From a virus, in IMG/VR virus record IMGVR_UViG_3300013137_000051, positions 1-37,039 of that record: a stretch of DNA of 37,039 nucleotides. The stretch is one strand, 5' to 3'. Numbering within the stretch: position 1 is the stretch's first letter; every line of letters begins with the position of its first letter. Shown here piece by piece: positions 9,030 to 36,200 of this stretch. A program made the position numbers and the translations under genes. The notes below the pieces were generated by a model. It made no database searches, was not told the DNA's origin, and worked only from the letters and a program-made list of their open reading frames with translations.

Positions 9030-11258
9030 TCAGCTCCAGGTGTTCCCGAACCGGTTGCGGTTCTCCAAAGATTGTTCCGCGACAACTTGCTTGACCATGT
9101 TGCGGATCGGTTCGTCGCCAAGGGTTATGTGGACATCGACCTTAGGTTGAGCGGAAGCGCCGCCTTCGTAGGACATGGGCGCACCCACAGCTTTTTGTTG
9201 AGTTTCGTCATTTAGCGGATCGGATGGACGAGGTATTGAATTTCGGATAGATCTAATGGCTTCCCGGACTGCGCTTCCAAATTTCACCACAGCCTCTCCT
9301 GCGCTTCGGTACGCCTGGGTGTCTCCTCCTCCCGCTATCCACGATGGTTGATTTTTTCCCTCGGTCAAAGCATCAAGGCCGGCCGCCTTGTCGTATGCCG
9401 TACGTCCAGTCCGCATTATCTGGTCATAAACTTCACGTTCTTTCTGTTTCCATTCCTCCTTTGTGAATTCTGAGGCGTCTTTTCCAGGTTTGGGGAATTC
9501 GGACATGCGGACCTTGTATTCTTCCTTCATCCACGCATTGATTTCCCTTAGAGTTTGAGGCAAGTCTTTTACTTTGCCGATATCAGTTACAAAACCGCTC
9601 TCTTCTTTCCCTCTGGACTGAAACTTCTTCACCATATTGTTGAGCCGGTTCTGCGTGTTTTCTTTTTCGTAATATGCGGAAACTTTGTTCGCCGCTGCGG
9701 CCAAGACACCAGTGAACTTCGATAGGATTCCTTCTGAGGCAACGATAGAGTCGGTTAGGCGCTTAGATGCGTTCCCTAATTGCTTCCAGCCATGCCCAAC
9801 GGTGTTGACGGCCTCATCCATCTTGTTCTTTAATTCGGAGAAGTCGGCGCCACGAATGTCACGCGTTTGCTGCTTCAACCGTTCAACAGTCCCGCCTTGC
9901 GCTAATGCAAGGATTTGAGGCAAAAAGTCTTTTGAGAATCCGAGATCCTTCACCATACTCAACCCATATCGCGGATCCTGACTCAGTTTATTTGCGTATG
10001 CCATAGCCGGAACCACGGCTTTTTCGAGGAACTGAGCAAACTTATCCGGGTCTGACATAACCTTGCTGATTCCGGCCGCTCTGCGGCGCACTTCATCTTC
10101 CTGCTCTTGTTTGGCTCTACCTCTGGCGCCAATTTTCAACAACCCCTCGTTTGCCATCATGAGCCGCGCATAGTCTTCGGGCGCACTCACCATAATATCT
10201 TTCATGGCACGGCCCGACTTGGCGCCTTTGAATCCAACATCAACCATCGTGCCGGCGTAAGCCAGCATAGCCGCGGGGTCCCAACCCTTTTGAGCCATGA
10301 CCGGCGCCACATATTGCATGAACTCAGTGATCCCTTTGCCCCAGATATTTGAAATCTCGATAGACTTGGTGACCATCGCCATCATCTTTTCGGACATTTG
10401 GCCAAGGTTCACATTCCCAAAACCCCGGACATTTGCGGATCCACCAGATTGAAGGGCGCTGTATACGTTTTTAGGTTGCGCAGTGAGGTACTGGTTCAAA
10501 AGCTTTGACTGCATTTCGGCTGCGGCTTCCGGCGACATTTTTGACATTTTGGCCGTCATCATGGCCGATTCGTTCATTTGCTTCAGGATTCCGACGCCCA
10601 GCTTGTCCACCGAAAAAGCAGACGCAGTTTGAGACATTCCCTTGATGTACTCTTCAGCCGAGATGTTCGGATATCGCGTTGCAAATTTGTGAGCGGAGAC
10701 TTCCGTTTGATACTTCTGCATCTTGTCAAAATTGACTGCCGACAATTCCGCAAGCGCTTCATCCGTTCCCACACGTTCTTTGCCCATGCCCAAACCAATC
10801 CCATACCTCCCGGCCTTTATCGCTTCGTGGAACAACAAGAACCGTCCCATAAAGCCAAAAGCGCCCATGTCACCAAAAATACCTTGCGCTCCGGACCGCC
10901 CTTGTCCCATTGCTCCTGCGGCGGCAGCCCCGGATGCAGTCCCTATTCCTCCGGGCGCCACAGTGGGCATAACCAATTTGGGGAGCTTGATCCCCTGAAG
11001 CTGACGCAATGTGGCGACAAAAGCTCCAGTCTCAATTTTTGCAGTTCGAGCGGTCCCCGTGATATAGCCAAATTGTCTCCCAATTTCCCGGGCAGCGGAT
11101 AGCCCCTTAGTCGCGTGGAGGGATAACTCAGACCAGACGGCATTCAACGCGGCCAGACTCTTCTGCATACCAAGAGCGCCTTGTTCCATCTTCTGGAACG
11201 CTGCGACAACCTGATCTGAGCCTGTGACCGCGTACGCTATGCCGATGTTCTGGTTCAT
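9030..11258 (-). CDS. Tail tape measure protein
   Basis: The product is 742 residues. It overlaps the end of the chaperone frameshift product by 4 bases (ATGA). The protein is long, helical and rich in Ala, Gly, Lys and Met (GIGTASGAAAAGAMGQGRSG at about 105-125, repeated KMSKMSPEAAAEMQSKLL-type helices), with a coiled N-terminal portion (VVAAFQKMEQGALGMQKSLA). A Gly-rich hydrophobic segment near residue 125-160 could be the membrane-inserting part. Length would set tail length at very roughly 110 nm if 1.5 angstrom per residue applies. No lysozyme or peptidase motif was seen. Placement just after the frameshifted chaperones and before the hub genes is diagnostic. Confidence 0.88.
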   Translation of the reverse strand: MNQNIGIAYAVTGSDQVVAAFQKMEQGALGMQKSLAALNAVWSELSLHATKGLSAAREIGRQFGYITGTARTAKIETGAFVATLRQLQGIKLPKLVMPTVAPGGIGTASGAAAAGAMGQGRSGAQGIFGDMGAFGFMGRFLLFHEAIKAGRYGIGLGMGKERVGTDEALAELSAVNFDKMQKYQTEVSAHKFATRYPNISAEEYIKGMSQTASAFSVDKLGVGILKQMNESAMMTAKMSKMSPEAAAEMQSKLLNQYLTAQPKNVYSALQSGGSANVRGFGNVNLGQMSEKMMAMVTKSIEISNIWGKGITEFMQYVAPVMAQKGWDPAAMLAYAGTMVDVGFKGAKSGRAMKDIMVSAPEDYARLMMANEGLLKIGARGRAKQEQEDEVRRRAAGISKVMSDPDKFAQFLEKAVVPAMAYANKLSQDPRYGLSMVKDLGFSKDFLPQILALAQGGTVERLKQQTRDIRGADFSELKNKMDEAVNTVGHGWKQLGNASKRLTDSIVASEGILSKFTGVLAAAANKVSAYYEKENTQNRLNNMVKKFQSRGKEESGFVTDIGKVKDLPQTLREINAWMKEEYKVRMSEFPKPGKDASEFTKEEWKQKEREVYDQIMRTGRTAYDKAAGLDALTEGKNQPSWIAGGGDTQAYRSAGEAVVKFGSAVREAIRSIRNSIPRPSDPLNDETQQKAVGAPMSYEGGASAQPKVDVHITLGDEPIRNMVKQVVAEQSLENRNRFGNTWS

Positions 11259-12213
11259 GCTCGCTCCGGCTCATTCTCCAATTCAAGCTGATGAAGATGC
11301 TTCGTCCAAACCGTCTGTTGAACAGACCACGGCCAGGACAAAACCTCGCTGCGTTGTTGCTTCAGATGAAACATCATGTTGTAGACAGCCTGCTCAAAGT
11401 TATCGAGGGTCATCGCCAAGATTGGCGCCAGCCTCGTGTAATCCTTGTATCCCCATTGGGTAAGGTCGGAACCTGTCCTCACCCAGCCGGTGCGAAAAAA
11501 TGGGGATGTTGAAGGATGTTCGTGTTCGTCTTTCTGCCGCATTCCGGGCAAGGGACAGCGACCACGGTGTTGTATCCGCATGTCAGCTTTCTTCTAGCGC
11601 CGGAAATGGCCGCATGGTCCGCGGCAAGAAGGTGAATCACATCCTCGTAGGAAAAATCCTTTTTCCCGTCGAGGGAACGGAGCGCATGAAAGTGAACCAG
11701 GTTTAGATCAACAGCGCCCGTGGATTCCTCTTGTCGGTTGATCTCCAGCTCTTTGCGGCCGGTCAACATCCCAATTTCCGCGACCATGTTTGACCTGGGC
11801 AACGTGACGCGAACCAATGGGTCCGGCGCCCCCGTGGATTCCTTGGGGATTGGTCGCGCTTCGAGGGTGTTCAACGGGAGACTCTGTTGTGAGTCGGACC
11901 CACAAAACGGGCATATGTGGGTGAACAAGAAGTTCTCGCCGTTGTGCAGCTTGTAGTAGTTGAGCTTGTACTGCTCAATCGCCAGGAATTCCTGATCGGG
12001 AAGGAGAAGATCGAGAATGTCGCTACGCCCGATCTTCTCCTTTGCTCCGATACTGTCAGTCAACGCTGCGAGGTAATCGTACATTGATTCGCTCATGCGT
12101 TTTCGCAAGAGCGCCTTTATAGCGTAGCCGTCAGCCTCATGGACAACGGCTACATCGCCAGAAATCGGAAGGGTGACCTCCCGTCGTTCAATTTCAGGAT
12201 TCTCTCTAATCAT
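11255..12213 (-). CDS. Tail assembly chaperone, predicted -1 frameshift fusion
   Basis: This is the predicted long form of the chaperone. Ribosomes reading the 11479-12213 frame reach codons CAT TTT TTC (H238, F239, F240), slip back one base on T-TTT-TTC, and continue in the overlapping frame to 11255. The result would be 319 residues: 240 shared residues plus a 79-residue helical C-terminal part beginning RTGWVRTGSDLTQWGYKD and ending LELENEPERA. The downstream frame has no convincing independent start and its useful part begins exactly at the slip. Known lambda G/GT and P2 E/E+E' systems occupy the same position before the tape measure gene, and there the long form links the tape measure to tube subunits. 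Confidence 0.75.
11479..12213 (-). CDS. Tail assembly chaperone, zero-frame product with zinc ribbon
   Basis: The product is 244 residues. The start overlaps the tail tube stop (ATGA, 12210-12213). It contains two paired-cysteine motifs, CPFCG at 101-105 and CPECG at 222-226, which together look like a split zinc ribbon. Between them lies DLNLVHFHALRSLDG and a helical FSYEDVIHLLAADH. The gene lies between tail tube and tape measure, the standard position for tail-assembly chaperones. It also resembles T4 gp26-type baseplate-hub assembly proteins in having a Cys-rich helical make-up, so a hub-assembly role is the alternative. The last codons are the slippery site described separately, and the zero-frame stop TGA follows four codons later. 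Confidence 0.72.
   Translation of the reverse strand: MIRENPEIERREVTLPISGDVAVVHEADGYAIKALLRKRMSESMYDYLAALTDSIGAKEKIGRSDILDLLLPDQEFLAIEQYKLNYYKLHNGENFLFTHICPFCGSDSQQSLPLNTLEARPIPKESTGAPDPLVRVTLPRSNMVAEIGMLTGRKELEINRQEESTGAVDLNLVHFHALRSLDGKKDFSYEDVIHLLAADHAAISGARRKLTCGYNTVVAVPCPECGRKTNTNILQHPHFFAPAG
11494..11500 (-). promoter_or_regulatory. Slippery heptamer T-TTT-TTC for -1 ribosomal frameshifting
   Basis: The minus strand reads CAT TTT TTC GCA in the chaperone frame. T-TTT-TTC fits the X-XXY-YYZ rule, and the frame that continues downstream is exactly the -1 frame. The zero-frame stop at 11479-11481 is 12 bases further on. Confidence 0.72.
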
Positions 12214-12698
12214 GCAGCCTCAAGCTCCCTTTCTTCCCTGTATTCGTACTCAACATGGATTTCGATGATAAGATCCTTGTCCTTTTGCATGCTGTGTCGG
12301 TTGCCAGGCCTGTACGCCGATGGCCATGCCCGGTAGAATTCCCATACCTTCACCGCATTGCCGTCGTTTCCCAGCTCATACAGGGAGAAGTTTCGCCGAT
12401 ACTGCGATGCGGGCTTGCCGTTCCCGGTTTTGGGATCCTGGATGTCGTTCATCCACTTTTCCCAGAAAAGTTTCCCGTCGCCAGAGATCGGCACAATCAT
12501 CTTCAGAATCGCCGGGTGATATTCCATAAACCCGGCTTCCTTAGAGGCGTAGTTTTGTCCCCCCCCTGCGTGTTTGGTGACGCCAATGTTGCGTTCCCCG
12601 GAATCGAACTCTTGAACCAAGAAATATGGCAGGCCATTGAACTCCACCCGGTATTTGAACTCTTGCAGTCTGGGAATTGAGCTACTTTCAGCAGGCAT
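12210..12698 (-). CDS. Tail tube protein
   Basis: The product is 162 residues. It has a strong GGAGGT site five bases before the ATG. The sequence (QEFKYRVEFNGLPYFLVQEF, then RNFSLYELGNDGNAVKVWEF and IIEIHVEYEYREERELEA) matches the T4 gp19/CIS tube family: two-strand N-terminus, a mid-region describing the GGGQ loop (KHAGGGQNYASKEA), and a final beta strand rich in Glu and Tyr. The usual size is 140-170. The gene follows the sheath by 22 bases and both genes share the sequence GGAGGTGCAA in front of the start, which would support equal high expression. It polymerises as the inner tube through which DNA passes. Confidence 0.88.
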   Translation of the reverse strand: MPAESSSIPRLQEFKYRVEFNGLPYFLVQEFDSGERNIGVTKHAGGGQNYASKEAGFMEYHPAILKMIVPISGDGKLFWEKWMNDIQDPKTGNGKPASQYRRNFSLYELGNDGNAVKVWEFYRAWPSAYRPGNRHSMQKDKDLIIEIHVEYEYREERELEAA

Positions 12699-12720: not shown

Positions 12721-14988
12721 TCAGGCCCGGACCCAGCCGGGGAGAGTCTTCATTTCCATGTAATCGGCAAACGCTTCGCCGGTCCTCATCACCCCCAGCG
12801 TGATTTCCAGGTAGTAGATCGTCCGTGTCGGCTGAATGAGCGCACGGCAATGGTAAATGCCGCGATCTATGTCGAGTCCGCTGTTAAGGACTGCATTCCT
12901 CAACACGCCTCCGTCGAAATACGCGTCACGGTCTGTCTGGAGAGCGAAATCGTAAATCGCGTACCGGTCTTTCCAGTCCTGGAACGCCGGCTGCAAGACC
13001 CTATGAATCTCCCGCCACGTCACCGGATGGTTGGGGTCATCGAGGAACATACGAAGGACAGGAAGGAGGGCCCGATTCATCATGGTGATGAATCTGACTA
13101 CATTCAATTCACGCAACGCGGAGGCCGCTCGCTGAGTAGTGCGTTGCTCCCAAAACATCGCCCCTTCAATACCGGGGATATGGCTAATGAACAGGTAGTT
13201 GACGCCGTTCTCAGCGAACAGGTCGGCATATCCGGTCGATCGATACGACTGAATGTTGAAGTCGATGTCCTCGACCAACGTCACAACGCCCCGTTTCGGT
13301 CCTACCGGCGCATACCACTGGCCGTAGTTGTTGTCCGTCTTGCAAAGACACGATGCAAGATGCCCCAGGTTCGGAATGAACTTCCGGGTATCGTCCATGT
13401 CGTCATAGACCTTCGGATAGCCGAACCACAGACAGAATCGATGCGAATTAAACGCCGGATGTGACCAAGGAAGGTTCCCCAGGCGCCAGTCCACTACCTC
13501 TTCCGGGGTCATGCCGAATGGCACCTGGCCGTGAGCGATCATGTCCTGGCGGGATTCCACGTACGTAATCATGGCCTGATATACGGTCGGGCTTGTAGTC
13601 CCCGGGATCATGAGATCCATTGCAAGGTTCCAGTTCTTGTCCGCCGCATACATGCCGGTTTGTAAAGTGGGATCGCCGATGTAGTCGTGTTCGACCAAGG
13701 CGCCTCCGTCATCACCGCCAGCAAGCGGAACACCGTTCAGATTCACGGCTGGCCGATTCGACGGAGCCAAGTTTGGCGACTCCAAATCCTCAACAGAGAT
13801 AAGGAGAGACCGCTCCTTGATGTAGTTCACCACGTAGCGTGCATGGGATGGGTCCATGCTGACATCCACGTAGTTTTCCTGAAGCTCTCCCTGGAGTCCG
13901 TAGACAATCTTCACATTGAAGAGTTGATCGGGATTCAAGGCGGAATCGGAAATCTGAACGATCAGGTAATTGCCCCATTCCCCCGGATTGTCGGCCCAAA
14001 ATTTCAATGTCGGCTGCGCAGAACCCGACGCTCCGGCGTGTTCGGTGGTATTGAGTCCTATTGCGGCCGCTGCCGTGGATGTAGCTTTAACCTGGATATA
14101 CGCGGTGGGGCCGGTTGCGACCGTAGTGAGCCGCAAAGCCCCATTGACAACCGAAGCTGAGGCGCTAGCGAGGGCTGCAAGCTGCAGGACAACTTGCGCC
14201 GCAGTAAGCATGAAGCTGGCGGCCTCTCCGTTCACCGGCTGAAGAGTAAATGTTTGATCAGCTCCACGGTTTACCGCGACAATAAGTTTGTTCGTCCCGG
14301 AGTCCGCTGCGTATACCGCCTCAACAAAACCTAGAACCGAATATGCGTCATTTGCTACGGTCTGAATCTCAATCAAATCAGCCGCGTTGTTTGCGCGAAC
14401 CCGGGGGCGCCCGTCAACTATTTCTGCGGTCAAGTCGTTAGTAGCCGCGTTAATTTGGTCACAGACCTGTTGAGCGGTTTGCATAGAGCCAGAGAGCGTA
14501 AACTGTTGAGACGTTCCCGCAGTTCCCACTTTCACCTTGAAGGCGTTGCTAGTTCCCGCGCCGAATGTGTATGGCGCCACTTCAGTAGCGGTTATGCGCC
14601 CCGATACGGCTGGACGGAACGTGTATGGACCTACCGCTCCGGTCACTATGGCCGGCAGGGGAGAAGCCCCGCGATCGTTGACCGTGACGAATGCTTTCAA
14701 CGCCGCCAGTGTCGCCGCATCGTGGATGTCGGTGTAATGGCCCAACCTGGAAAGGATAAATCGTGCCCCCTGCCTGAGCCCCATCTCGACCACAAGCGGA
14801 TCCGTAGATCGAGTATGCTTCAAACCGCAAACTCGCCGGTATTCCTCCATGCTAGAAATAACCACAGGCTCGTGCATCCGGCCGCGCTGCATTTCGACGC
14901 ACATAAACACGTAACCACGAACGATCTCGTCCACGAACATCGAGAGATCGTTGATTGTCCAAATTACCCGTGTAGCTCCCAGGGTCAT
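12721..14988 (-). CDS. Contractile tail sheath protein with inserted repeat domains
   Basis: The product is 755 residues, longer than common 390-500-residue sheaths. The C-terminal half has sheath hallmarks: WADNPGEWGNYLIVQI, RSLLISVEDL, the NGVPLAGGDDG strand (insertion in the protease-resistant domain), IPGIEGAMFWEQRTT and RFITMMNRALLPVLRMFLDDP with the final TIYYLEITLGVMRTGEAF. The N-terminal half is unusual: residues about 148-221 and 232-312 form two related beta-rich units (FKVKVGTAGTSQQFTLSG, TAQQVCDQINAATNDLTAEI, and VAVNRGADQTFTL with LTAAQVVLQLAAL), similar in pattern to flagellar hook/flagellin IN-type motifs. They would project from the tail surface. The start overlaps the upstream gene as ATGA, with GGAGGT before it. 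Confidence 0.9.
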   Translation of the reverse strand: MTLGATRVIWTINDLSMFVDEIVRGYVFMCVEMQRGRMHEPVVISSMEEYRRVCGLKHTRSTDPLVVEMGLRQGARFILSRLGHYTDIHDAATLAALKAFVTVNDRGASPLPAIVTGAVGPYTFRPAVSGRITATEVAPYTFGAGTSNAFKVKVGTAGTSQQFTLSGSMQTAQQVCDQINAATNDLTAEIVDGRPRVRANNAADLIEIQTVANDAYSVLGFVEAVYAADSGTNKLIVAVNRGADQTFTLQPVNGEAASFMLTAAQVVLQLAALASASASVVNGALRLTTVATGPTAYIQVKATSTAAAAIGLNTTEHAGASGSAQPTLKFWADNPGEWGNYLIVQISDSALNPDQLFNVKIVYGLQGELQENYVDVSMDPSHARYVVNYIKERSLLISVEDLESPNLAPSNRPAVNLNGVPLAGGDDGGALVEHDYIGDPTLQTGMYAADKNWNLAMDLMIPGTTSPTVYQAMITYVESRQDMIAHGQVPFGMTPEEVVDWRLGNLPWSHPAFNSHRFCLWFGYPKVYDDMDDTRKFIPNLGHLASCLCKTDNNYGQWYAPVGPKRGVVTLVEDIDFNIQSYRSTGYADLFAENGVNYLFISHIPGIEGAMFWEQRTTQRAASALRELNVVRFITMMNRALLPVLRMFLDDPNHPVTWREIHRVLQPAFQDWKDRYAIYDFALQTDRDAYFDGGVLRNAVLNSGLDIDRGIYHCRALIQPTRTIYYLEITLGVMRTGEAFADYMEMKTLPGWVRA

Positions 14989-16517: not shown

Positions 16518-17261
16518 TCAGCTCATGTCGTAGGAAAATTCGGATCCGGGTAGCGTATGCTCTCGTTCAACGGCTTTTCTCACCACAACGTTGATCGTCG
16601 GATTTGTCGCCATATTCGGCCCGGTATCCACGATGATCGCATGTTCGATGTCGAGGTCCCATCGCTCGCCCAAAAACTCGAAGCTCATCGTCGGCTCGAT
16701 CTTCGGGATTCCGTCTTCAAGGAGGTAGGGGCGGAAGAAGAGCAAATGACGTTCTTCATGCTCCTCGATTCCTCCGGCGCCGACAACAAGTCCCTCGGCG
16801 TTTGACCTCACGTTCGCCCAATGGACCGTGCGCACAGATACGGGAGCACGTTTGCATATCCCACCGCTGACGTAGCTCCTATATGAACCATCACAATAGA
16901 CAGCCAGACTGTCCATAACGATTTGATCGTCACTCATGACAATGGGGTAAGTGATCTGTCCATCTGTACCGGATATTGGTTCACCAGTTTCCGGATCAAA
17001 AATTAAAAAAGCATCTTGCGTAACGCTTTTAGCCCTAAACGTTCCATTCGCCGCGGGATTGCCGACAACCCCCTCAATAGTTATTAGGGCATTCTCGGCT
17101 CGTCTATGATTAGGACTCACAACCAAAACAGGTGTATCGTTTGAGGCGCCAACGACAGCCCTGGGATCTTCCCGGAGAACGAGAATCCAGAAATCATAAG
17201 CCGAGAAGTCGTAACCCTTCTTGGCGATCGCGATTGCGCTATTTCTGGTAATCTCGTTCAT
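16518..17261 (-). CDS. Structural-region protein of unknown function
   Basis: The product is 247 residues. It lies in the capsid-to-tail block, between the 135-residue gene (10 bases away) and the gp10-like gene. The sequence is soluble and mainly beta (QDAFLIFDPETGEPISGTDG, VMSDDQIVMDSLAVYCDGSY, EEHEERHLLFFRPYLLEDG). No known motif is recognised. Position suggests a neck or head-completion component, or a protein that aids tail joining. An uncommon feature is the central DGSYRSYVSGG strand with one Cys. Ribosome-binding context is poor. Confidence 0.6.
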   Translation of the reverse strand: MNEITRNSAIAIAKKGYDFSAYDFWILVLREDPRAVVGASNDTPVLVVSPNHRRAENALITIEGVVGNPAANGTFRAKSVTQDAFLIFDPETGEPISGTDGQITYPIVMSDDQIVMDSLAVYCDGSYRSYVSGGICKRAPVSVRTVHWANVRSNAEGLVVGAGGIEEHEERHLLFFRPYLLEDGIPKIEPTMSFEFLGERWDLDIEHAIIVDTGPNMATNPTINVVVRKAVEREHTLPGSEFSYDMS

Positions 17262-26403: not shown

Positions 26404-27111
26404 CTAAATCGTTTGAGTGCGGGGCCTGCGATAAATGCGTGAACTCCAAATACACTCCCCGACGACACGAATAGCGCCTTTCACAATGTCGAAACTCGAA
26501 TACGTTGGATTCTCGGGCCGGATCACGAACCTGTCTTCTCCTATCGCCCTCATATGGCTTACCTGAAGAAGGCCGCCGAGAGCGAACGCGTACACCGCCT
26601 CATCCTGGACAACATTCCTCCCCAAGTCCACCATGATCAGATCACCCATTTGCATCAGAGGATACATGAAATCGTCCTGCAATTCCACAATGCGCACCGC
26701 ATTCACGTCACTGGCGATACCCGCAAGCATGTCGTATGGATAGCCGTACCATTGGGTCTTTTCCATAGGCAACAGACCATTTTGCATGCGCGCCAGCACA
26801 TCGACACGAATCTTGGGAACAAACACTGTGTCTTCGGTTCGAGCCGGATCGAATCTTCTGGAAGATGAAAAATCATCACGACAGAGGTCCGCAAGGAATA
26901 TCGGAGGAACTCCGTACAAAAGCCAGTTGGCCGAGATCCCCCGTCTCTCTCTTATCGTTGAGAGCGTGCTCCCGCTCATAGTGTCGTTCTTGGCTGCGCT
27001 CTTTAGGGTAGCTTTGGGAACCCCAGTGAATTTTTCAAGATCGGAAAGCCAGGTCTTTTCGTTTCCCCCAAGCAGGACCGCCAGCTCAATTAGCCGTTCA
27101 CTCAAAGACAT
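26404..27111 (-). CDS. LexA/S24-like regulator lacking the catalytic Ser-Lys
   Basis: The product is 235 residues. AGGAAAGG lies six bases before the ATG. The N-terminus (GGNEKTWLSDLEKFTGVPKA and GSTLSTIRERRGISANWLL) is an HTH DNA-binding domain. The C-terminal half follows the S24/LexA fold (NAVRIVELQDDFMYPLMQMG, then LIMVDLGRNVVQDEAVYAFA and DRFVIRPENPTYSSFDI). Where LexA has the catalytic Ser (GMSM) this protein has DDFM, and the Lys position (VKRL) reads VSHM, so self-cleavage should be lost. It could act as a non-inducible or Cro-like repressor or a dominant partner to the CI-type protein upstream. It leads the operon of membrane and exported genes. Confidence 0.8.
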   Translation of the reverse strand: MSLSERLIELAVLLGGNEKTWLSDLEKFTGVPKATLKSAAKNDTMSGSTLSTIRERRGISANWLLYGVPPIFLADLCRDDFSSSRRFDPARTEDTVFVPKIRVDVLARMQNGLLPMEKTQWYGYPYDMLAGIASDVNAVRIVELQDDFMYPLMQMGDLIMVDLGRNVVQDEAVYAFALGGLLQVSHMRAIGEDRFVIRPENPTYSSFDIVKGAIRVVGECIWSSRIYRRPRTQTI

Positions 27112-28805: not shown

Positions 28806-29150
28806 TTGCCAACAACAGCGGAAAGAGACGCGGCAGTCGCTAGAGCAGTAGCGGCATGGCAGGCGAACCAGCCCGATCTGGTCACCTGCCCGCTTGGCAC
28901 GATCACGCTCCGTGACTGCGATCGCTACCAGGAAGAACGAGCGCATGACGACAGCGTTGTGGTTCACAGCAACAACCGAGTCAGGTTCAAGGCGCCTCGA
29001 TTCGCAAGATGCCGAGGCGCAAATTGCCCTCGCTACCAATTCAAGGACAGCGATCCGGACAGAGACAATTTTGAAAAAGGAAGAGGAAAACGCAAGAGGG
29101 GGCCGCGGAAACCAAGCAGCGATCCTCGACCTGCGGGAGGGACAGCATGA
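28806..29150 (+). CDS. Small four-cysteine protein, unknown function
   Basis: The product is 114 residues from TTG at 28806, preceded by GAGGAGGAGAAGGA. Cysteines occur as VTCPLGTITLRDCDRYQ and, later, ARCRGANCPRYQ, giving four positions suited to a metal site. The C-terminus is very basic (KGRGKRKRGPRKPSSDPRPA), suggesting nucleic-acid binding. Its stop overlaps the nuclease start as ATGA. No family is recognised. It may help the adjacent nuclease, which has its own N-terminal Cys cluster. Confidence 0.6.
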   Translation: MPTTAERDAAVARAVAAWQANQPDLVTCPLGTITLRDCDRYQEERAHDDSVVVHSNNRVRFKAPRFARCRGANCPRYQFKDSDPDRDNFEKGRGKRKRGPRKPSSDPRPAGGTA

Positions 29151-31216
29151 CGGAAACAGCAACACAGTCGAAAAATGCTCCATGCGCCACATGCGCAAAT
29201 CAGAAACTCGACTCCGAAGGACAGGAGTACTGCGACGAATTCGGGGAAGCCGTAGGCGTCATTGCAAGTTGCGGGTGTTGGGCTCCAAGAAACGCAGAGA
29301 ACAAAGAAGAAAGAGGGCAGCAAGACGGCCCCGAAGAAGAGGAAAATGAGGCGGCGCCTGAAACAGAAGAACCTGCCGAGACTATTGATTCGGAGCCCAC
29401 AGAAGAAGGAATAGGTTCGGAAGACGAGGCTAGCCCTGAAGATAAGGTGTCCTCCACAACAGTAACAATCGACGGCGCAACATTTCCGATGAATGAAGAC
29501 GGAACGTTCCCGGACGAGACGAAGACTGCGATTCAAGCCGTCGTCGCCGATAAAATCAACGAACGCCGTTCCCTCTCCGACCGCTCCATCTCCGAAGAAA
29601 CGCCCGAAGCCAAGACCACAACGGAGTTCGATCTCAACGAACTTCCGGGCGTGCGCGACACGCTGGAGATGCACCGAGCGCAGATTTACCGCTATTTTCA
29701 TGAAGGTGGTGACGAAACGCCGGTCATGAACCTGAAGCTTGCATTCGGACGAGGATCTGTAAAGGGACAGATTGTCACGACGATTCCGCATAAGATCAAG
29801 AGCGATATCGTCGCAACCGATCTTGTCCACGAAAACGGCGACATTCGGTTATTGAGAGCTGTGCGGCAGGTCGATATGTTCGGAGCGGGCGTCAATCCCG
29901 AAACGCCGGTCACTGTTGAAATAGCGCCTGAGTCCGATGAATCTCCGGCCGACGTATCTGTGCCCGACTTCTTCGAGATCTTCACTCAAACGCGACTGAA
30001 ACTCCTACAGCTCTGCCCAAAGAAGCAATGGTTCCGATACGAACGGGGCCTAGTTCCTCAATCCAGCAAGGAAGAGGCGCTATGGTTTGGGACCGTGATC
30101 CATATGTGTCTCGACGTGTGGCATGACCCAAGCGAACGGACCCGACAAGAGCGAATCGAAGCCATCAAAGAAATCATTGCGACTAACTTCCAGAATCGCG
30201 ATCAGGACGAGAAGGAAAGGAAGCTGTGGCACTACGCCCGAGCGATGGTCCGAGCCTACATGCTCAAATTCCCCCTCGGATCGGAGAGCTGGACATCCAG
30301 CGCCACTGAAAAGTTCTTTCATGGCCCCATCGTGAACCCCGAAACAGGAGAAGCGATCTCCTGGGCGATCTATGCAGGGAAGCTAGACCTTGCTGGATTG
30401 TGGGGAGACCAGACGAAATTCATTGGCGAGCACAAGACCGCGACCACAATCGATTCCAGCTACCTCGAAGCCTTGCAAAACGATCTGCAAATCATCGGGT
30501 ATGCGCTGTATGCCGGTGAACAGGAAGGCTGCACATACAATCGCATCCTCTACAATGTGCTTGCGAAACCGATGCTGAAGCAGAGCAAGGGAGAAACTCA
30601 AGAGGAATATCTAACACGGTACGCGGAAGCCTGTACCAAAGCCAAGTCAGGGAAAAGCTCGGCAAAGCGCAATATGCCCGAAACTGACGACGAGTTTCAA
30701 AAACGTCTCGCGGACTGGTACGAGAAACCCGAAAAACTGCATCGCGAAGAAATCCTGATCGATCAACGGCAATACGACGAAGTACGTCGCGAACTATGGA
30801 ATCTATGCCAACTCTACTTGCACATGCGTACATCAGGCAATTGGCCAAGGAACCGCAAGGCTTGTTACGGCATGAGTGGCAAATGCGGCTACTACGACGC
30901 CTGCATGGCCCGGCCCGAAGAAGAAGAGCAGATGATTGAGTTGTACCTCCGACCGGAACCTCCACATGCGGAGCTGCAAGAGTTTCTGGGTGAAGTGTTG
31001 AGAACGAAGGGAAAAGAGACGGAAACCGCCGAAGACGGTGGTGAACCTGTAGATCTCGCGCCTCCGGTAGACAGCGACGGTGTGGCCACTGAAAACGATG
31101 AGCCTGATGGAAACGAATCTGTCAGCCAAGACGGACCGGAGGCGACGACGCAGGATGCGCCCGACGACAACGCTGGCGCCAACGACAACAGCGAAACACC
31201 CAACGAAGATTTCTAA
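29147..31216 (+). CDS. RecB/Cas4-type PD-(D/E)XK nuclease with Fe-S signature
   Basis: The product is 689 residues. Residues about 275-590 hold a nuclease of the Cas4/RecB/PD-(D/E)XK family: LLQLCPKKQWFRYERG (Cys290), FGTVIHMCLD with His319, YAGKLDLAGLWG with Asp414, FIGEHKTATTID with Glu428 and Lys430, then ALQNDLQIIGYALYAGE and the final CYGMSGKCGYYDAC (Cys573, 580, 586). The four cysteines fit the [4Fe-4S] arrangement of Cas4 and AddB. Unusual parts are an N-terminal Cys cluster (C13, C16, C29, C42, C44), an acidic linker (about 52-100), and a region at 100-250 of unknown type. A long acidic C-terminal tail follows. GGAGGG precedes the ATG. It probably makes ssDNA for recombination. Confidence 0.82.
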   Translation: MTETATQSKNAPCATCANQKLDSEGQEYCDEFGEAVGVIASCGCWAPRNAENKEERGQQDGPEEEENEAAPETEEPAETIDSEPTEEGIGSEDEASPEDKVSSTTVTIDGATFPMNEDGTFPDETKTAIQAVVADKINERRSLSDRSISEETPEAKTTTEFDLNELPGVRDTLEMHRAQIYRYFHEGGDETPVMNLKLAFGRGSVKGQIVTTIPHKIKSDIVATDLVHENGDIRLLRAVRQVDMFGAGVNPETPVTVEIAPESDESPADVSVPDFFEIFTQTRLKLLQLCPKKQWFRYERGLVPQSSKEEALWFGTVIHMCLDVWHDPSERTRQERIEAIKEIIATNFQNRDQDEKERKLWHYARAMVRAYMLKFPLGSESWTSSATEKFFHGPIVNPETGEAISWAIYAGKLDLAGLWGDQTKFIGEHKTATTIDSSYLEALQNDLQIIGYALYAGEQEGCTYNRILYNVLAKPMLKQSKGETQEEYLTRYAEACTKAKSGKSSAKRNMPETDDEFQKRLADWYEKPEKLHREEILIDQRQYDEVRRELWNLCQLYLHMRTSGNWPRNRKACYGMSGKCGYYDACMARPEEEEQMIELYLRPEPPHAELQEFLGEVLRTKGKETETAEDGGEPVDLAPPVDSDGVATENDEPDGNESVSQDGPEATTQDAPDDNAGANDNSETPNEDF

Positions 31217-31259
31217 TCGATTCCACCACGAATCGTTCAACGAGGAGGAATACTCACCA

Positions 31260-32126
31260 ATGCCATTACCCACAGCCCAATCGGAACCTGAAATCGATCC
31301 CTCCCGACTATGTGTGACCATTTACACAGAAAGCGGCTTAGGGAAATCCACATTCTGTTCGCAGGTGAAAGACATCCTGCTTGTCCCCAACGTCCAGGCT
31401 GGTCTACGCAACATCAAGGGATACAAGTACGACATTATCACGCACTGGGATGGATATAAGACTGTCCTGCAAGAACTGAAGAACGAGAAGCATTCATACC
31501 GGGCGGTATGCCTCGACACCATCACCGAGATGCGTAAAATGGCGGCTGACGCCATCTGCCGCAAGTACAATGTTCCCCACGAAACTGACCTTCCGGGGGA
31601 CAATAACAAGGGATACACACTCATCAACAACGAGTTCTTCCGCCTGATCAAAGAATTCTATGGCCTGGGCCTGGGGCTATACATGACCGCTCACGTCCGA
31701 GAAGAGAAACAGAAGACCAAGACTCAAGAATGGTTGAAAGCGGTCCCGGACCTGCCGGGCAAGAGCCGGGCCGACATTATCGCGATTAGCGACATTGTGC
31801 TCTATGGCGACAGCGAAGAATATGAAGACGACAAAGACGACAACAAGAAAAAAACGCGGAGAATTTTGCATACTAGACCCAACACCTATTGGGTCGCAAA
31901 AGACCGTTTCTCCGTCCTCCCGGAACCGATCCCACTCAGCTACAACCGTTTCATGCAGTCCTTCATTGAGGGGATGAAGCAGAAGAAGCTGGCCGTTGAA
32001 CACACCGGAAACGCGGGGACCTCTAACGCCCGGACAAATGACAAAACCGAAAACAAACTCGATAACAAAGCCGAAAACAAGAACGCAACCCCTGGGGCCG
32101 CAACCACTGCGTCTCCCAAGAAATAA
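31260..32126 (+). CDS. Sak4-like RecA-fold ATPase
   Basis: The product is 288 residues from ATG at 31260, preceded by AGGAGG 11 bases away. Walker A is ESGLGKST at 24-31 and a Walker B-like AVCLDTITEM is at 82-91. LGLYMTAHVREEKQKTKT and DIIAISDIVLYGD follow, as in phage AAA_24/Sak4 single-strand annealing ATPases. The C-terminus (SNARTNDKTENKLDNKAEN) is disordered and polar. It sits between the Cas4-like nuclease and a DUF669-like gene, a frequent trio in phages. Likely it works with that nuclease and a ssDNA-binding protein for homologous recombination. Confidence 0.78.
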   Translation: MPLPTAQSEPEIDPSRLCVTIYTESGLGKSTFCSQVKDILLVPNVQAGLRNIKGYKYDIITHWDGYKTVLQELKNEKHSYRAVCLDTITEMRKMAADAICRKYNVPHETDLPGDNNKGYTLINNEFFRLIKEFYGLGLGLYMTAHVREEKQKTKTQEWLKAVPDLPGKSRADIIAISDIVLYGDSEEYEDDKDDNKKKTRRILHTRPNTYWVAKDRFSVLPEPIPLSYNRFMQSFIEGMKQKKLAVEHTGNAGTSNARTNDKTENKLDNKAENKNATPGAATTASPKK

Positions 32127-32165
32127 CCATAACGGATACCCGCAACACCGAAAGGAGCGCACACC

Positions 32166-32651
32166 ATGCCCGTAGATCTCGCAAAGATGAACGAAGAATA
32201 TGAAAAAGCAAAACCCGCAACCGATGGCCTTCCTCCCGGAACCTACCAGGCCAGAATCGATGAAGCGATCCTTGGCACAACGAATGACGACAAGTACTGG
32301 ATGATCAAATTCAAATTGAAAGTGGTGTCTGGCCAGCACGAAGGCGCTACAGCCTTCTTCAACATCACCATTACGGGCGAAAAGGACAACTACACCTATG
32401 TAAAAAGGGACCTCCACAAGCTGGGATACAGCGGCCCCCTGGGAGAAGACCAGATACGTGCCGCCTGCGAAGAGTGGATTGGGCAATACATCGAGATCAA
32501 GGTGGGCACCAGGAAAGACAAGAGAACCGGAGAAGAACGGTCGCAAACATACATGAACAAGCGCATCGAGCCGTCAAACATCACACCCGGATACGACGGC
32601 CCCAGTGAACCGACTGACTACGCTCCACCGGATTGGGACGATAACATTTGA
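32166..32651 (+). CDS. DUF669-like ssDNA-binding candidate
   Basis: The product is 161 residues. AAAGGAG lies before the ATG. Beta-rich segments (LPPGTYQARIDEAILGTT, KYWMIKFKLKVVSGQHEG, YIEIKVGTRKDKRTGEERSQ) and an acidic aromatic C-terminus (PTDYAPPDWDDNI) fit phage DUF669/OB-fold ssDNA-binding proteins, whose acidic tail recruits partners. It directly follows the Sak4-like gene in the recombination series. Family is inferred from pattern and order. Confidence 0.68.
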   Translation: MPVDLAKMNEEYEKAKPATDGLPPGTYQARIDEAILGTTNDDKYWMIKFKLKVVSGQHEGATAFFNITITGEKDNYTYVKRDLHKLGYSGPLGEDQIRAACEEWIGQYIEIKVGTRKDKRTGEERSQTYMNKRIEPSNITPGYDGPSEPTDYAPPDWDDNI

Positions 32652-32685
32652 TTTTCTTCTTTTGGCGAATTGCAGGGCTAGTTCC

Positions 32686-33210
32686 ATGAGCAAAGACAAA
32701 TTTCAACACATCATCGTGATCGATACCCGCGAACAAACTCCCTGGGCGTTCGGGGAGGGCTTTCAGACCGTCAATTGCGCCCTCCCCGCGGGGGACTATT
32801 CGGTAATGGGGTATGAACACGAAATCGCAATCGAGCGCAAGAATATTAACGATCTGGCTCAAACGGTCATCAAAGATCGAAGGCGATTTCACAAGGAATT
32901 GTCAAAACTGGCCGGCTACCGTCACAAGGCCGTCGTAGTCGAAGCCAAGATCGAAGACATCCTTTTGCGGAAGTACTCGAGCAACGCCCATCCGTTTAGC
33001 GTACTCGGGGCCTGCTCCTCGTTTCACGCGATCTATGGGGTCCCGTTCCTTTGGTGGGACAGCCGACAAACGGCTGAACTCATGGCGAAGATGTGGCTGC
33101 AGTGGGCTGCGAGAATTGAAGACCAAAGGAAAGAGGCGGAAAAGAACGGGATGAAAGACCAGGAAGTGGAAGACAGAAAAATGGAAAACAAGGACGGAAA
33201 CAATGGCTAA
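32686..33210 (+). CDS. ERCC4-type nuclease
   Basis: The product is 174 residues from the ATG at 32686. The ERCC4/XPF-Mus81 nuclease pattern is complete: IVIDTREQTPW with Asp13, LPAGDYSVMG at 34-42, then EIAIERKNINDLAQTV with the ERK triad at 50-52, DRRRFHKELSKLAGYRH, and AVVVEAKIED. It lacks the HhH and helicase parts of eukaryotic relatives, so it is a stand-alone catalytic domain. The C-terminus is highly charged (KEAEKNGMKDQEVEDRKMEN). Its stop overlaps the helicase start by eight bases (33203-33210). It would cut branched or flapped DNA, probably with that helicase. Confidence 0.82.
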   Translation: MSKDKFQHIIVIDTREQTPWAFGEGFQTVNCALPAGDYSVMGYEHEIAIERKNINDLAQTVIKDRRRFHKELSKLAGYRHKAVVVEAKIEDILLRKYSSNAHPFSVLGACSSFHAIYGVPFLWWDSRQTAELMAKMWLQWAARIEDQRKEAEKNGMKDQEVEDRKMENKDGNNG

Positions 33211-35530
33211 ATCCGCAGCCCAAAAACTTGACGACTCCCTATTCCGTGAAACGCTTCGAGGAACTGTCGCCAAGCTCTATACCTCAAACCCGAAATTCTC
33301 GGCTGGACTGTTCGATACCGGGCAACGGCAGTCGGGCTCGATCCGTTTCACTGCCGCGACACAGCTTGTCGAGGGCGTGCGACTCGTGCTTTCTGGCCAA
33401 TGGGTAAAAGACCCAAAATTTGGAGCGCAATTCGCGGCGGAAACAGTTGAATACGATATGTCCATCGACCCGGAGGGCCTTGCGTTATGGCTCGCCAAGA
33501 ATCCCGCATTGAAAGGCATCGGTCGCGCCAAAGCCGAGCGGATCGCAGAAGTCTTTGGCGCCGACTTCGACAACATTGTCACGAACGAACCCGAGAAAAT
33601 TCAAAAGCTGGCACATCTCTCAAACGAAAGCATGACGTTGCTGACTGCGCTCTGGAAAGACTACCGGGACTATCACAAACTCATCACGTGGCTCGCGCAG
33701 TTTGGCTTATCCATAAAGGAAATTGACGCAATCAAAGAGAAATACGGTAACGACGCAATCGTTATTCTGCAGGCGGACCCTTATACGATCTGTGGAGAGA
33801 TCCCACGATTCGGATTCAAGACCGTTGACACGATCGCTCTGAAAATGGGGGTTTCGAAGGAGCTTGATTCAAGAATTGGTCACGGAGTCCTGTGGAGTCT
33901 CAACGAGAACCTCAACGAGGGATCCACGTACATGCGACGTGACGACCTGGTCAACGCAGCCAATAGTCTGCTGAACCTGGATACATTGAATAGCAAACAG
34001 ATCATTTCGGACAAAATTACAGAACTGACAAAGCAGGGACACCTGCAGCAACACATTGTAGACAAGACTCGAATCGTCATTCACCCTGATGTTGCGGAAA
34101 AAGAAGAATTTCTCTGTGAGATATTCCGCAACACCAAAGACCGTAAACATCCTCATGCTCACGCAATCCCGGCCGACATCACGGCGTGGCTCCCCTCTGG
34201 CGACAGGGAATTGAACGAGCAGCAGCGTCAGGCCGTAGACCAGGCGACGAGGAAGAGCGTCAGCCTGATCAGTGGCGGCGCCGGAACCGGCAAGACGTTC
34301 ACAATCAAAACAATTGTGGACTGCTACGAACAACACGCCGAAAAGACCATCTTCATTCCCGAGCTTGATGGAAGTGAGACCGCAGACAAGATCCACTTCC
34401 GCGTCGAGTTGTGCGCTCCCACAGGCAAGGCTGCCCGACGAATGGAGGAATCAACCGGCCACTATGCGCAGACCATTCACCGATTGCTCGAGTACCATCC
34501 TGCGTTCGGGTTCCAGCGAGACAAATACAATCCGATCAACGCAGACGTGGTGATTATCGACGAATTCTCAATGGTAGATTCGATCTTGGGCTACCATCTG
34601 TTTCAGGCCATAGACCTGCGAAACACGTCCGTGGTTATCGTCGGGGACCATAACCAGCTTCCCCCTGTGGGGCCTGGAAACATCCTGCGGGATCTTATCC
34701 AATCGGGCTGCGTCCCAACGACAATGTTGACACATGTTGTTCGGCAGGCCGGAACGCTCAAAAGGAATTGCACGGCCATTCTCGATGGCTATGTTGAACC
34801 AACATGCAAACCCAAAGAAAAAGGAGCCATCCCTTGGCAGGTCGTGAGGAGCTTGACTGAAACTCTGACCTGCAAGAGACACCTGGTCGACGGATTCAAA
34901 CAAATTTTAGAGAGCCGGCCGACAGCCGACATCATCCATGGAATCCAAATCTTGAGCCCCCAGAAAAAGGGTGACCTGGGCTGCGATGCCTTGAATGTGG
35001 AGCTTCAAAGGGTAGTCCAAAAGGTGAAGTGGGGCGTCGATGTCGAGCCCGTTAGTCACGGCAAGGGAAAACGGCCAGCCTTCTACGTAAACGATAAAGT
35101 GATCCAGACCAAAAACGACTACAACCTGGACGTGATGAACGGCACGTTAGGCCAAATCGTTGGCATCGGCCCCTTCTTCGACCCTGAAACGAGAGAAGAA
35201 ATCGCCAACACCAAGGACGCTTTGAAGATCCAGTTTGAGGGACGGAATCGTCCGGTAATCGTCGAGAAGGATAAAAGAATCAACGTGAGCTTGGCATACG
35301 CTCTCACGATCCACAAGTGTCAGGGAAGCGAATTCCCAATGGTGTTGCTGGTAATCCACAAAGCGCACAACTTCATGCACACAAGAAACCTGCTCTACAC
35401 GGGCGCAACCAGGGCGAAGAAAAAACTCATTGTGATGGGTGACAAATGGGGGATCTCGAACTGCGCAAGCAAGGTGGCTGTGGATTTGAGAAAGACATGG
35501 CTGAGTGAGTTGTTGAAGAGGTGTGCATGA
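33203..35530 (+). CDS. RecD2-like DNA helicase
   Basis: The product is 775 residues. The N-terminus has an OB-like strand region and two helix-hairpin-helix-type segments (KGIGRAKAERIAEVFG at 104-119, GEIPRFGFKTVDTIALKMGV near 198-217). SF1 helicase motifs follow: Walker A GGAGTGKT at 358-365, APTGKAARRM near 405, DEFSMVD at 453-459, GDHNQLPPVGPGNILRD near 482, VTQ-like NDKVIQTKNDYN, and ALTIHKCQGSEFPMVLL (motif VI). This is the RecD2 layout. Its stop overlaps a 38-residue gene as ATGA. It would unwind 5'-3' and act in replication restart or recombination with the nuclease cassette. Confidence 0.88.
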   Translation: MAKSAAQKLDDSLFRETLRGTVAKLYTSNPKFSAGLFDTGQRQSGSIRFTAATQLVEGVRLVLSGQWVKDPKFGAQFAAETVEYDMSIDPEGLALWLAKNPALKGIGRAKAERIAEVFGADFDNIVTNEPEKIQKLAHLSNESMTLLTALWKDYRDYHKLITWLAQFGLSIKEIDAIKEKYGNDAIVILQADPYTICGEIPRFGFKTVDTIALKMGVSKELDSRIGHGVLWSLNENLNEGSTYMRRDDLVNAANSLLNLDTLNSKQIISDKITELTKQGHLQQHIVDKTRIVIHPDVAEKEEFLCEIFRNTKDRKHPHAHAIPADITAWLPSGDRELNEQQRQAVDQATRKSVSLISGGAGTGKTFTIKTIVDCYEQHAEKTIFIPELDGSETADKIHFRVELCAPTGKAARRMEESTGHYAQTIHRLLEYHPAFGFQRDKYNPINADVVIIDEFSMVDSILGYHLFQAIDLRNTSVVIVGDHNQLPPVGPGNILRDLIQSGCVPTTMLTHVVRQAGTLKRNCTAILDGYVEPTCKPKEKGAIPWQVVRSLTETLTCKRHLVDGFKQILESRPTADIIHGIQILSPQKKGDLGCDALNVELQRVVQKVKWGVDVEPVSHGKGKRPAFYVNDKVIQTKNDYNLDVMNGTLGQIVGIGPFFDPETREEIANTKDALKIQFEGRNRPVIVEKDKRINVSLAYALTIHKCQGSEFPMVLLVIHKAHNFMHTRNLLYTGATRAKKKLIVMGDKWGISNCASKVAVDLRKTWLSELLKRCA

Positions 35531-35643
35531 GTCTTCCATCCCTATTCACAAGACTGCGAGGCTACAGGGTCAATAACTACGTGGTCCTTTTGATCATTCA
35601 GGGGATAACGCCGGTCTGTCAGAATTGCGGAGCTGAGTCATGA
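35527..35643 (+). CDS. 38-residue CxxC protein
   Basis: ATG at 35527 overlaps the helicase stop, and its own stop overlaps the next start (35640), both as ATGA. I translated MSLPSLFTRLRGYRVNN, then YVVLLIIQGITPVCQNCGAES. One CxxC pair near the end and a short hydrophobic segment (YVVLLIIQGI) are visible. Double coupling is good evidence that it is expressed. It may be a partial zinc ribbon that pairs with another copy. Function unknown. Confidence 0.6.
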   Translation: MSLPSLFTRLRGYRVNNYVVLLIIQGITPVCQNCGAES

Positions 35644-36200
35644 GTTTCCTCTACGTCTCCACCTCGCTCTCTCATTTCGAGATCCCACGATCCCTGGATC
35701 CACCGCGGTCCTTCGGATGGAACGGCCAAATGTATCGCCGGCTCGACTCCCAATTCTACGCGTGGTTGCGTCGGCGAATCGATGCTCTTGCTCGGATGGA
35801 AGTAGGCGCTTTTGAGAAAGCCGGCGTCACGGTGAACGACTACACAGAGACTCTCGATCGTTTCTCTGAGATCCACGAATGGGCGAAGGTCCGGATGGGC
35901 GCCGAGAAATTGGAAGAGATCACGAAGAAAACAAATCTGAAGGGCTTTGAGTTGAGACCCTATAGTCCGACGCTTTGGGATGCGACCGATAAAGTAGTCA
36001 TCAGTTGCATCCCTGGTGAATCGGATGATTCAGCGATTTGGGCGCAAATCTCCGCCAATGAGCGGTTAGCCACTCCTGCCGCGACGGCCGAGACGACGCC
36101 CCAATGTCTTGGGACTGCTCCACCAAAACCAAGGATGATTCATACCCATCCTCCGAAGGTGAATGTCTCGAAAAGCACGGAGCAGTCCCAACTGTTTTGA
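35640..36200 (+). CDS. Protein of unknown function downstream of the helicase
   Basis: The product is 186 residues, ATGA-coupled to the 38-residue gene. The N-terminal half is helical (SQFYAWLRRRIDALARMEVG) with aromatic residues, and the C-terminal 60 residues are Pro/Thr-rich (PAATAETTPQCLGTAPPKPR) and likely unstructured. No motif is recognised. Its position places it in the early plus-strand operon. Confidence 0.58.
   Translation: MSFLYVSTSLSHFEIPRSLDPPRSFGWNGQMYRRLDSQFYAWLRRRIDALARMEVGAFEKAGVTVNDYTETLDRFSEIHEWAKVRMGAEKLEEITKKTNLKGFELRPYSPTLWDATDKVVISCIPGESDDSAIWAQISANERLATPAATAETTPQCLGTAPPKPRMIHTHPPKVNVSKSTEQSQLF

Follow-up and report, generated by a model that had tools for sequence, protein, structure and literature searches.

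A predicted programmed -1 ribosomal frameshift in the tail-assembly chaperone gene of an uncultured contractile-tailed phage

The tail-assembly chaperone gene of a contractile-tailed phage, present on a 37-kb IMG/VR viral contig (IMGVR_UViG_3300013137_000051, 37,039 nucleotides; hereafter the window), very probably contains a programmed -1 ribosomal frameshift. The anatomy of the site, the conservation of site and frame, the codon constraint, the lack of a conserved alternative start and the similarity to chaperones in family and predicted fold are observed; the slippage itself, its efficiency, the role of a hairpin and the function in assembly are inferred. Most ribosomes would terminate at position 11479 and release a chaperone of 244 amino acids, and at CA T_TTT_TTC a minority would move back by one base, the two Phe tRNAs pairing anew with TTT TTT. 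A downstream RNA hairpin probably assists the slippage. The shifted ribosomes would add 79 residues, for a total length of 319 aa. If lambda G/GT is a guide, the short form would serve as a coat for the tape-measure protein, and the extension would recruit tail-tube subunits.

Anatomy of the junction and its conservation in relatives

All genes of this locus lie on the minus strand, in the order tail sheath (12721..14988; PHROG 23 tail sheath, 4e-36), tail tube (gp19-like, 12210..12698; Pfam Phage_T4_gp19, 2.8e-11), ORF1 (11479..12213), the extension frame (11255..11494) and tape measure (9030..11258; Pfam PhageMin_Tail, 1.3e-8). ORF1, the short chaperone (TAC-N) of 244 aa, is assigned from its sequence, from PF12322 matches of its relatives and from an AlphaFold2 model, and its location between the tail tube and sheath genes and the tape-measure gene is the one expected of a G/GT-type gene. 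Residues 101/104 and 222/225 of the protein form CxxC pairs.

The 3' end of ORF1 reads CAT TTT TTC GCA CCG GCT GGG TGA, with the protein ending in HPHFFAPAG*. The slippery heptamer T_TTT_TTC (11500-11494, minus strand) is in phase as CA[T TTT TTC] and is separated by 12 nt (GCA CCG GCT GGG) from the frame-0 stop TGA (11481-11479). Reading across the junction, the -1 frame continues as ...TTT TTT CGC ACC GGC TGG GTG AGG... and stays open until the TGA at 11257-11255, which overlaps the ATG of the tape-measure gene (11258-11256) as ATGA. Tandem slippage would join 240 residues to 79, giving the predicted 319-aa product (TAC-NC). A preliminary description of this DNA had proposed the ORF1 end CAT TTT TTC GCA with a stop 12 bases later, the fit of T-TTT-TTC to the X-XXY-YYZ slippery rule, an exactly -1 continuing frame up to the ATGA overlap and products of 244 and 319 residues; on recomputation all of these hold, on the minus strand. 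Of 7,459 codon positions in the structural genes of the window, only two have T_TTT_TTN in phase, a rarity that speaks against a chance occurrence at the end of ORF1. The other site (TTTTTTA), in the gene at 16518-17261 (minus strand), is located about 490 nt before the gene end and probably arose by chance. No Shine-Dalgarno-like stimulator upstream of the heptamer was evident by eye.

Elsewhere in the window, a candidate S24-peptidase (LexA/cI-like) repressor (26404-27111, minus strand) and a block encoding a divergent PD-(D/E)XK nuclease, an AAA_24 protein and a RecD2-type helicase (29147-36200, plus strand) are present, and the phage is possibly temperate.

Relatives were obtained by two motif scans on conserved sheath peptides followed by protein searches in the records found. 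Scans of large viral and genome contig collections with the single ORF1 protein gave no relatives, a rescan of the viral collection with a three-sequence ORF1 alignment gave no additional ones, and neither a search of the genome contig collection with the sheath nor a plasmid search gave a match. The sheath is better conserved than ORF1, and the sheath search did yield relatives. Altogether 16 loci were collected, among which 12, including the window, are distinct at the junction; because of their close similarity, L041 and L044 are not independent, and L040 is a near copy of L042.

The position of the junction is identical in all 12 distinct loci and the extension is always in the -1 frame. 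Frame 0 ends in the pattern [D/H/G]-F-[L/F]-x-P-x-G-stop, with three extra codons in L038. The preliminary description had expected the slippery bases to be conserved in related phages and had named a broken T-run as evidence to the contrary. T_TTT_TTA or T_TTT_TTC is present in 11 of the 12 distinct loci, in agreement with the expectation, but the remaining one, L042 (together with its near copy L040), has C_TTT_TTG with the T-run reduced to TTTTT. This heptamer offers poorer P-site re-pairing and counts against a frameshift. In L042 and L040 the extension is also shorter at its start, and the downstream RNA shows no excess of structure.

Several features indicate that the extension is a conserved coding frame. 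Its -1 frame is free of stops in all 12 loci, compared with 2-10 stops in each of the other two frames. Divergence at the three codon positions (0.56/0.45/0.65) is lowest at position 2 and highest at position 3, as in coding sequence, and the product is conserved at the protein level across the 12 loci with a near-invariant WP pair. Four loci (L021, L017, L041 and L044) have a -1 stop just 5' of the heptamer, their -1 frame being open from only 22-25 nt ahead of the frame-0 stop, and the start of the extension in these loci can therefore be translated only after a shift. The window being a single metagenomic contig, a sequencing error or a decayed gene could be suspected as the source of the frame break, but its occurrence in identical form in 12 distinct loci from separate contigs, together with the coding constraint on the extension, refutes this reading, to which we assign a negligible probability. 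DUF6760 (PF20546) gives a sub-threshold match in two of the 12 extensions (best E 0.035). T4 gp28 was considered as a counterpart of the extension and rejected, as the comparison gave no support.

Codon constraint, alternative starts and downstream RNA structure

ORF1 of the window is only about 42-54% identical to its aligned relatives, and therefore synonymous sites should be largely randomised. Codon-aligned, the ORF1 sequences contain 27 columns that are two-fold degenerate and keep their residue in at least 10 of the 12 loci. The only monomorphic columns among them are the two belonging to the slippery site, Asp238 (GAT in 10/10) and Phe239 (TTT in 12/12), whereas the other 25 are all mixed with a mean top-codon share of 0.62. 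The residue following Phe239 is encoded by TTA in nine sequences, TTG in one and TTC in two, and by CTN in none. Based on the codon usage of each genome and ignoring shared ancestry, the joint chance of TTT together with GAT or CAT is about 1e-5. The restriction of wobble bases that the preliminary description had proposed to look for is thus seen at the slippery codons.

Alternatively, the extension could form a gene of its own, its translation starting by coupled re-initiation at a -1-frame GTG (11480..11482, minus strand), which overlaps the frame-0 stop by four bases (GTGA, 11482-11479). Such a stop/start overlap is a common coupling arrangement, and the window, alone among the loci compared at that position, has a start codon exactly at the overlap. 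A well-placed independent start in the downstream frame of relatives had been named beforehand as a finding that would speak against frameshifting; this GTG of the window, a possible start of that kind, had not been mentioned in the preliminary description. However, it is not conserved: L003 has ATA and L007 has GTA in its place, and in L016, where the extension is likewise conserved, the stretch between -61 and +155 of the stop contains no start codon. Moreover, the sequence upstream of the GTG shows no evident Shine-Dalgarno motif, and re-initiation leaves the invariant TTT and GAT codons unexplained. We therefore consider re-initiation very improbable compared with the frameshift.

The RNA downstream of the heptamer was folded over 50 nt starting 3 nt after it and compared with dinucleotide shuffles. 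The 12 sequences, which are partly related, fold better than their shuffles, with a mean z of -1.46 (Stouffer -5.1). The analysed DNA itself is predicted to form a 9-bp stem, UGGGUGAGG / CCUUACCCA (11457..11485, minus strand), starting 8 nt after the heptamer with -17.7 kcal/mol and a z of -1.6, which is modest against shuffles; this hairpin is a putative stimulator. Stronger hairpins are predicted in L010 (z -2.4) and L007 (z -4.4), and little structure is seen within the 50 nt in L017, L037 and L042. Downstream folding is thus supportive of the frameshift without being decisive.

The enrichment of RNA structure also counts against transcriptional slippage, in which RNA polymerase would slip on the run of six T and generate mRNAs of altered length. 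A homopolymeric T run is indeed conserved across the loci, but the phase of the heptamer is the ribosomal one in every locus, and a stop follows closely. Efficient transcriptional slippage would be expected to need a run longer than six T, or than the five of L042. This explanation appears even less probable than re-initiation, and ribosomal frameshifting remains the reading that we prefer.

Protein family and fold

The ORF1 protein of the window alone has no match to PF12322 in Pfam at E<=0.1. Its relative L012 matches PF12322 (T4_baseplate) with 28.8 bits against a cut-off of 24.5, and L007 (23.9 bits) and L016 fall just below this cut-off. Profile-profile comparison with a distant PF12322-containing group gives 99.1% (E 6e-19), and both T4 gp26 and gp51 match PF12322. 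On the basis of these sequence comparisons, we place the ORF1 protein in the T4 gp26/gp51 (PF12322) branch of tail chaperones.

An AlphaFold2 model of the 244-aa protein (pLDDT 87, pTM 0.83) matches predicted SP-15 and T4-type hub proteins in BFVD. Among solved structures, residues 1-87 of the model are closest to YqbN (3KLU, Z 7.8) and HK97 gp13 (2OB9, Z 7.0), both below Z 8, with the next best structure at Z 2.5; Foldseek on solved structures gave a probability of 0.92 and an E of 0.42. The remainder of the model beyond the N-terminal domain is unmatched among solved structures, and sequence comparison identified no solved structure that is clearly related to ORF1, to the extension or to T4 gp51. 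YqbN and HK97 gp13 are both described as tail-assembly chaperones (PMC9603447). Two independent chaperones leading the matches fits the position of the gene and, at the level of a predicted model, is suggestive of a chaperone fold, in line with the label given in the preliminary description.

Relation to known chaperone systems

Frameshifted tail chaperones are textbook knowledge. The -1 frameshifted chaperones of the lambda G/GT type (Xu, Hendrix and Duda 2004, as cited in PMC5009743) resemble the present locus in the location of the gene before the tape measure, in a short protein with a -1 extension and in a slippery heptamer near the stop, and the predicted N-terminal fold of ORF1 may resemble that of HK97 gp13. 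ORF1 differs from that type in its greater length (244 aa), in an additional portion with two CxxC pairs, in its membership of the T4_baseplate branch and in its T_TTT_TT[A/C] heptamer. In the Vandenendeviridae and Andersonviridae (phage Adele), which have contractile tails, a conserved poly-T slip site GTTTTT is described and the -1 extension is usually annotated as a separate gene (PMC12846349); the likeness of that locus to ours is one of description, and its slip motif differs in length.

By family the comparison is with T4 (L057 7803-9229), where gp26 (208 aa) and gp51 (249 aa) also form a short and an extended version, gp51 being longer by about 46 residues at the end. The match of the gp51 tail to extension profiles is weak, 60% with the distant group and 0.4% with the clade of the window. 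As cited in PMC10885494 and PMC12846349, some T4-like phages are reported to encode separate paralogs, one short and the other long and fused, a solution published in 2022 (Vladimirov, Gautam and Davidson). In contrast to the paralogous genes as presented in those citations, one gene here would make both forms by frameshifting. In Xanthomonas phage XacN1 (L056 2941-3986), a PF12322 gene that is a distant homolog has T_TTT_TTT close to its end, and the -1 frame continues for 68 codons; the locus is annotated as two genes and has a longer frame-0 tail.

Other arrangements are seen in distant PF12322-type loci. In several isolate and uncultured phages, namely LIS04 (L051 7421-7652), SP-15 (L055), GXN1 (L002), Mel-JY01 (L048), QdP_Psa3 (L049), L047 and L005, the open frame following ORF1 is +1 (or -2) at the equivalent protein position (F-F-x-P). 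A CCC_TAA in QdP_Psa3 looks like a classic +1 site, and the extension of LIS04 falls in an unannotated gap. In Pseudomonas phage Lu11 (L054 8372-10135), two adjacent paralogs downstream of the tube genes are 24% identical over 237 aa (E 1.5e-16), and the second is about 65 aa longer at its C-terminus. Neither matches PF12322, and the pair looks like a short and long chaperone made without frameshifting.

In the literature searched, a tail-chaperone frameshift in the uncultured clade of the window seems to be undescribed, and a mixed -1, +1 and paralog pattern across the PF12322 family seems to be unreported. The present locus adds a well-supported frameshift site for an uncultured clade of contractile-tailed phages, and the extension belongs in annotation as part of a frameshifted CDS and not as a separate gene. 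According to PMC5009743, G/GT-type frameshifting is conserved among long-tailed phages, with the exception of T4. The clade of the window would therefore indicate that frameshifting is possible for a T4-type chaperone, a point of relevance to the origin of the two T4 paralogs. We give about even chances to the wider proposal that the T4_baseplate family as a whole either frameshifts or duplicates, by -1 in the clade of the window and XacN1, by +1 or -2 in SP-15, LIS04, GXN1, Mel-JY01 and similar phages, and by short and fused paralogs in T4. If this is true, one assembly requirement would be met by three interchangeable decoding solutions.
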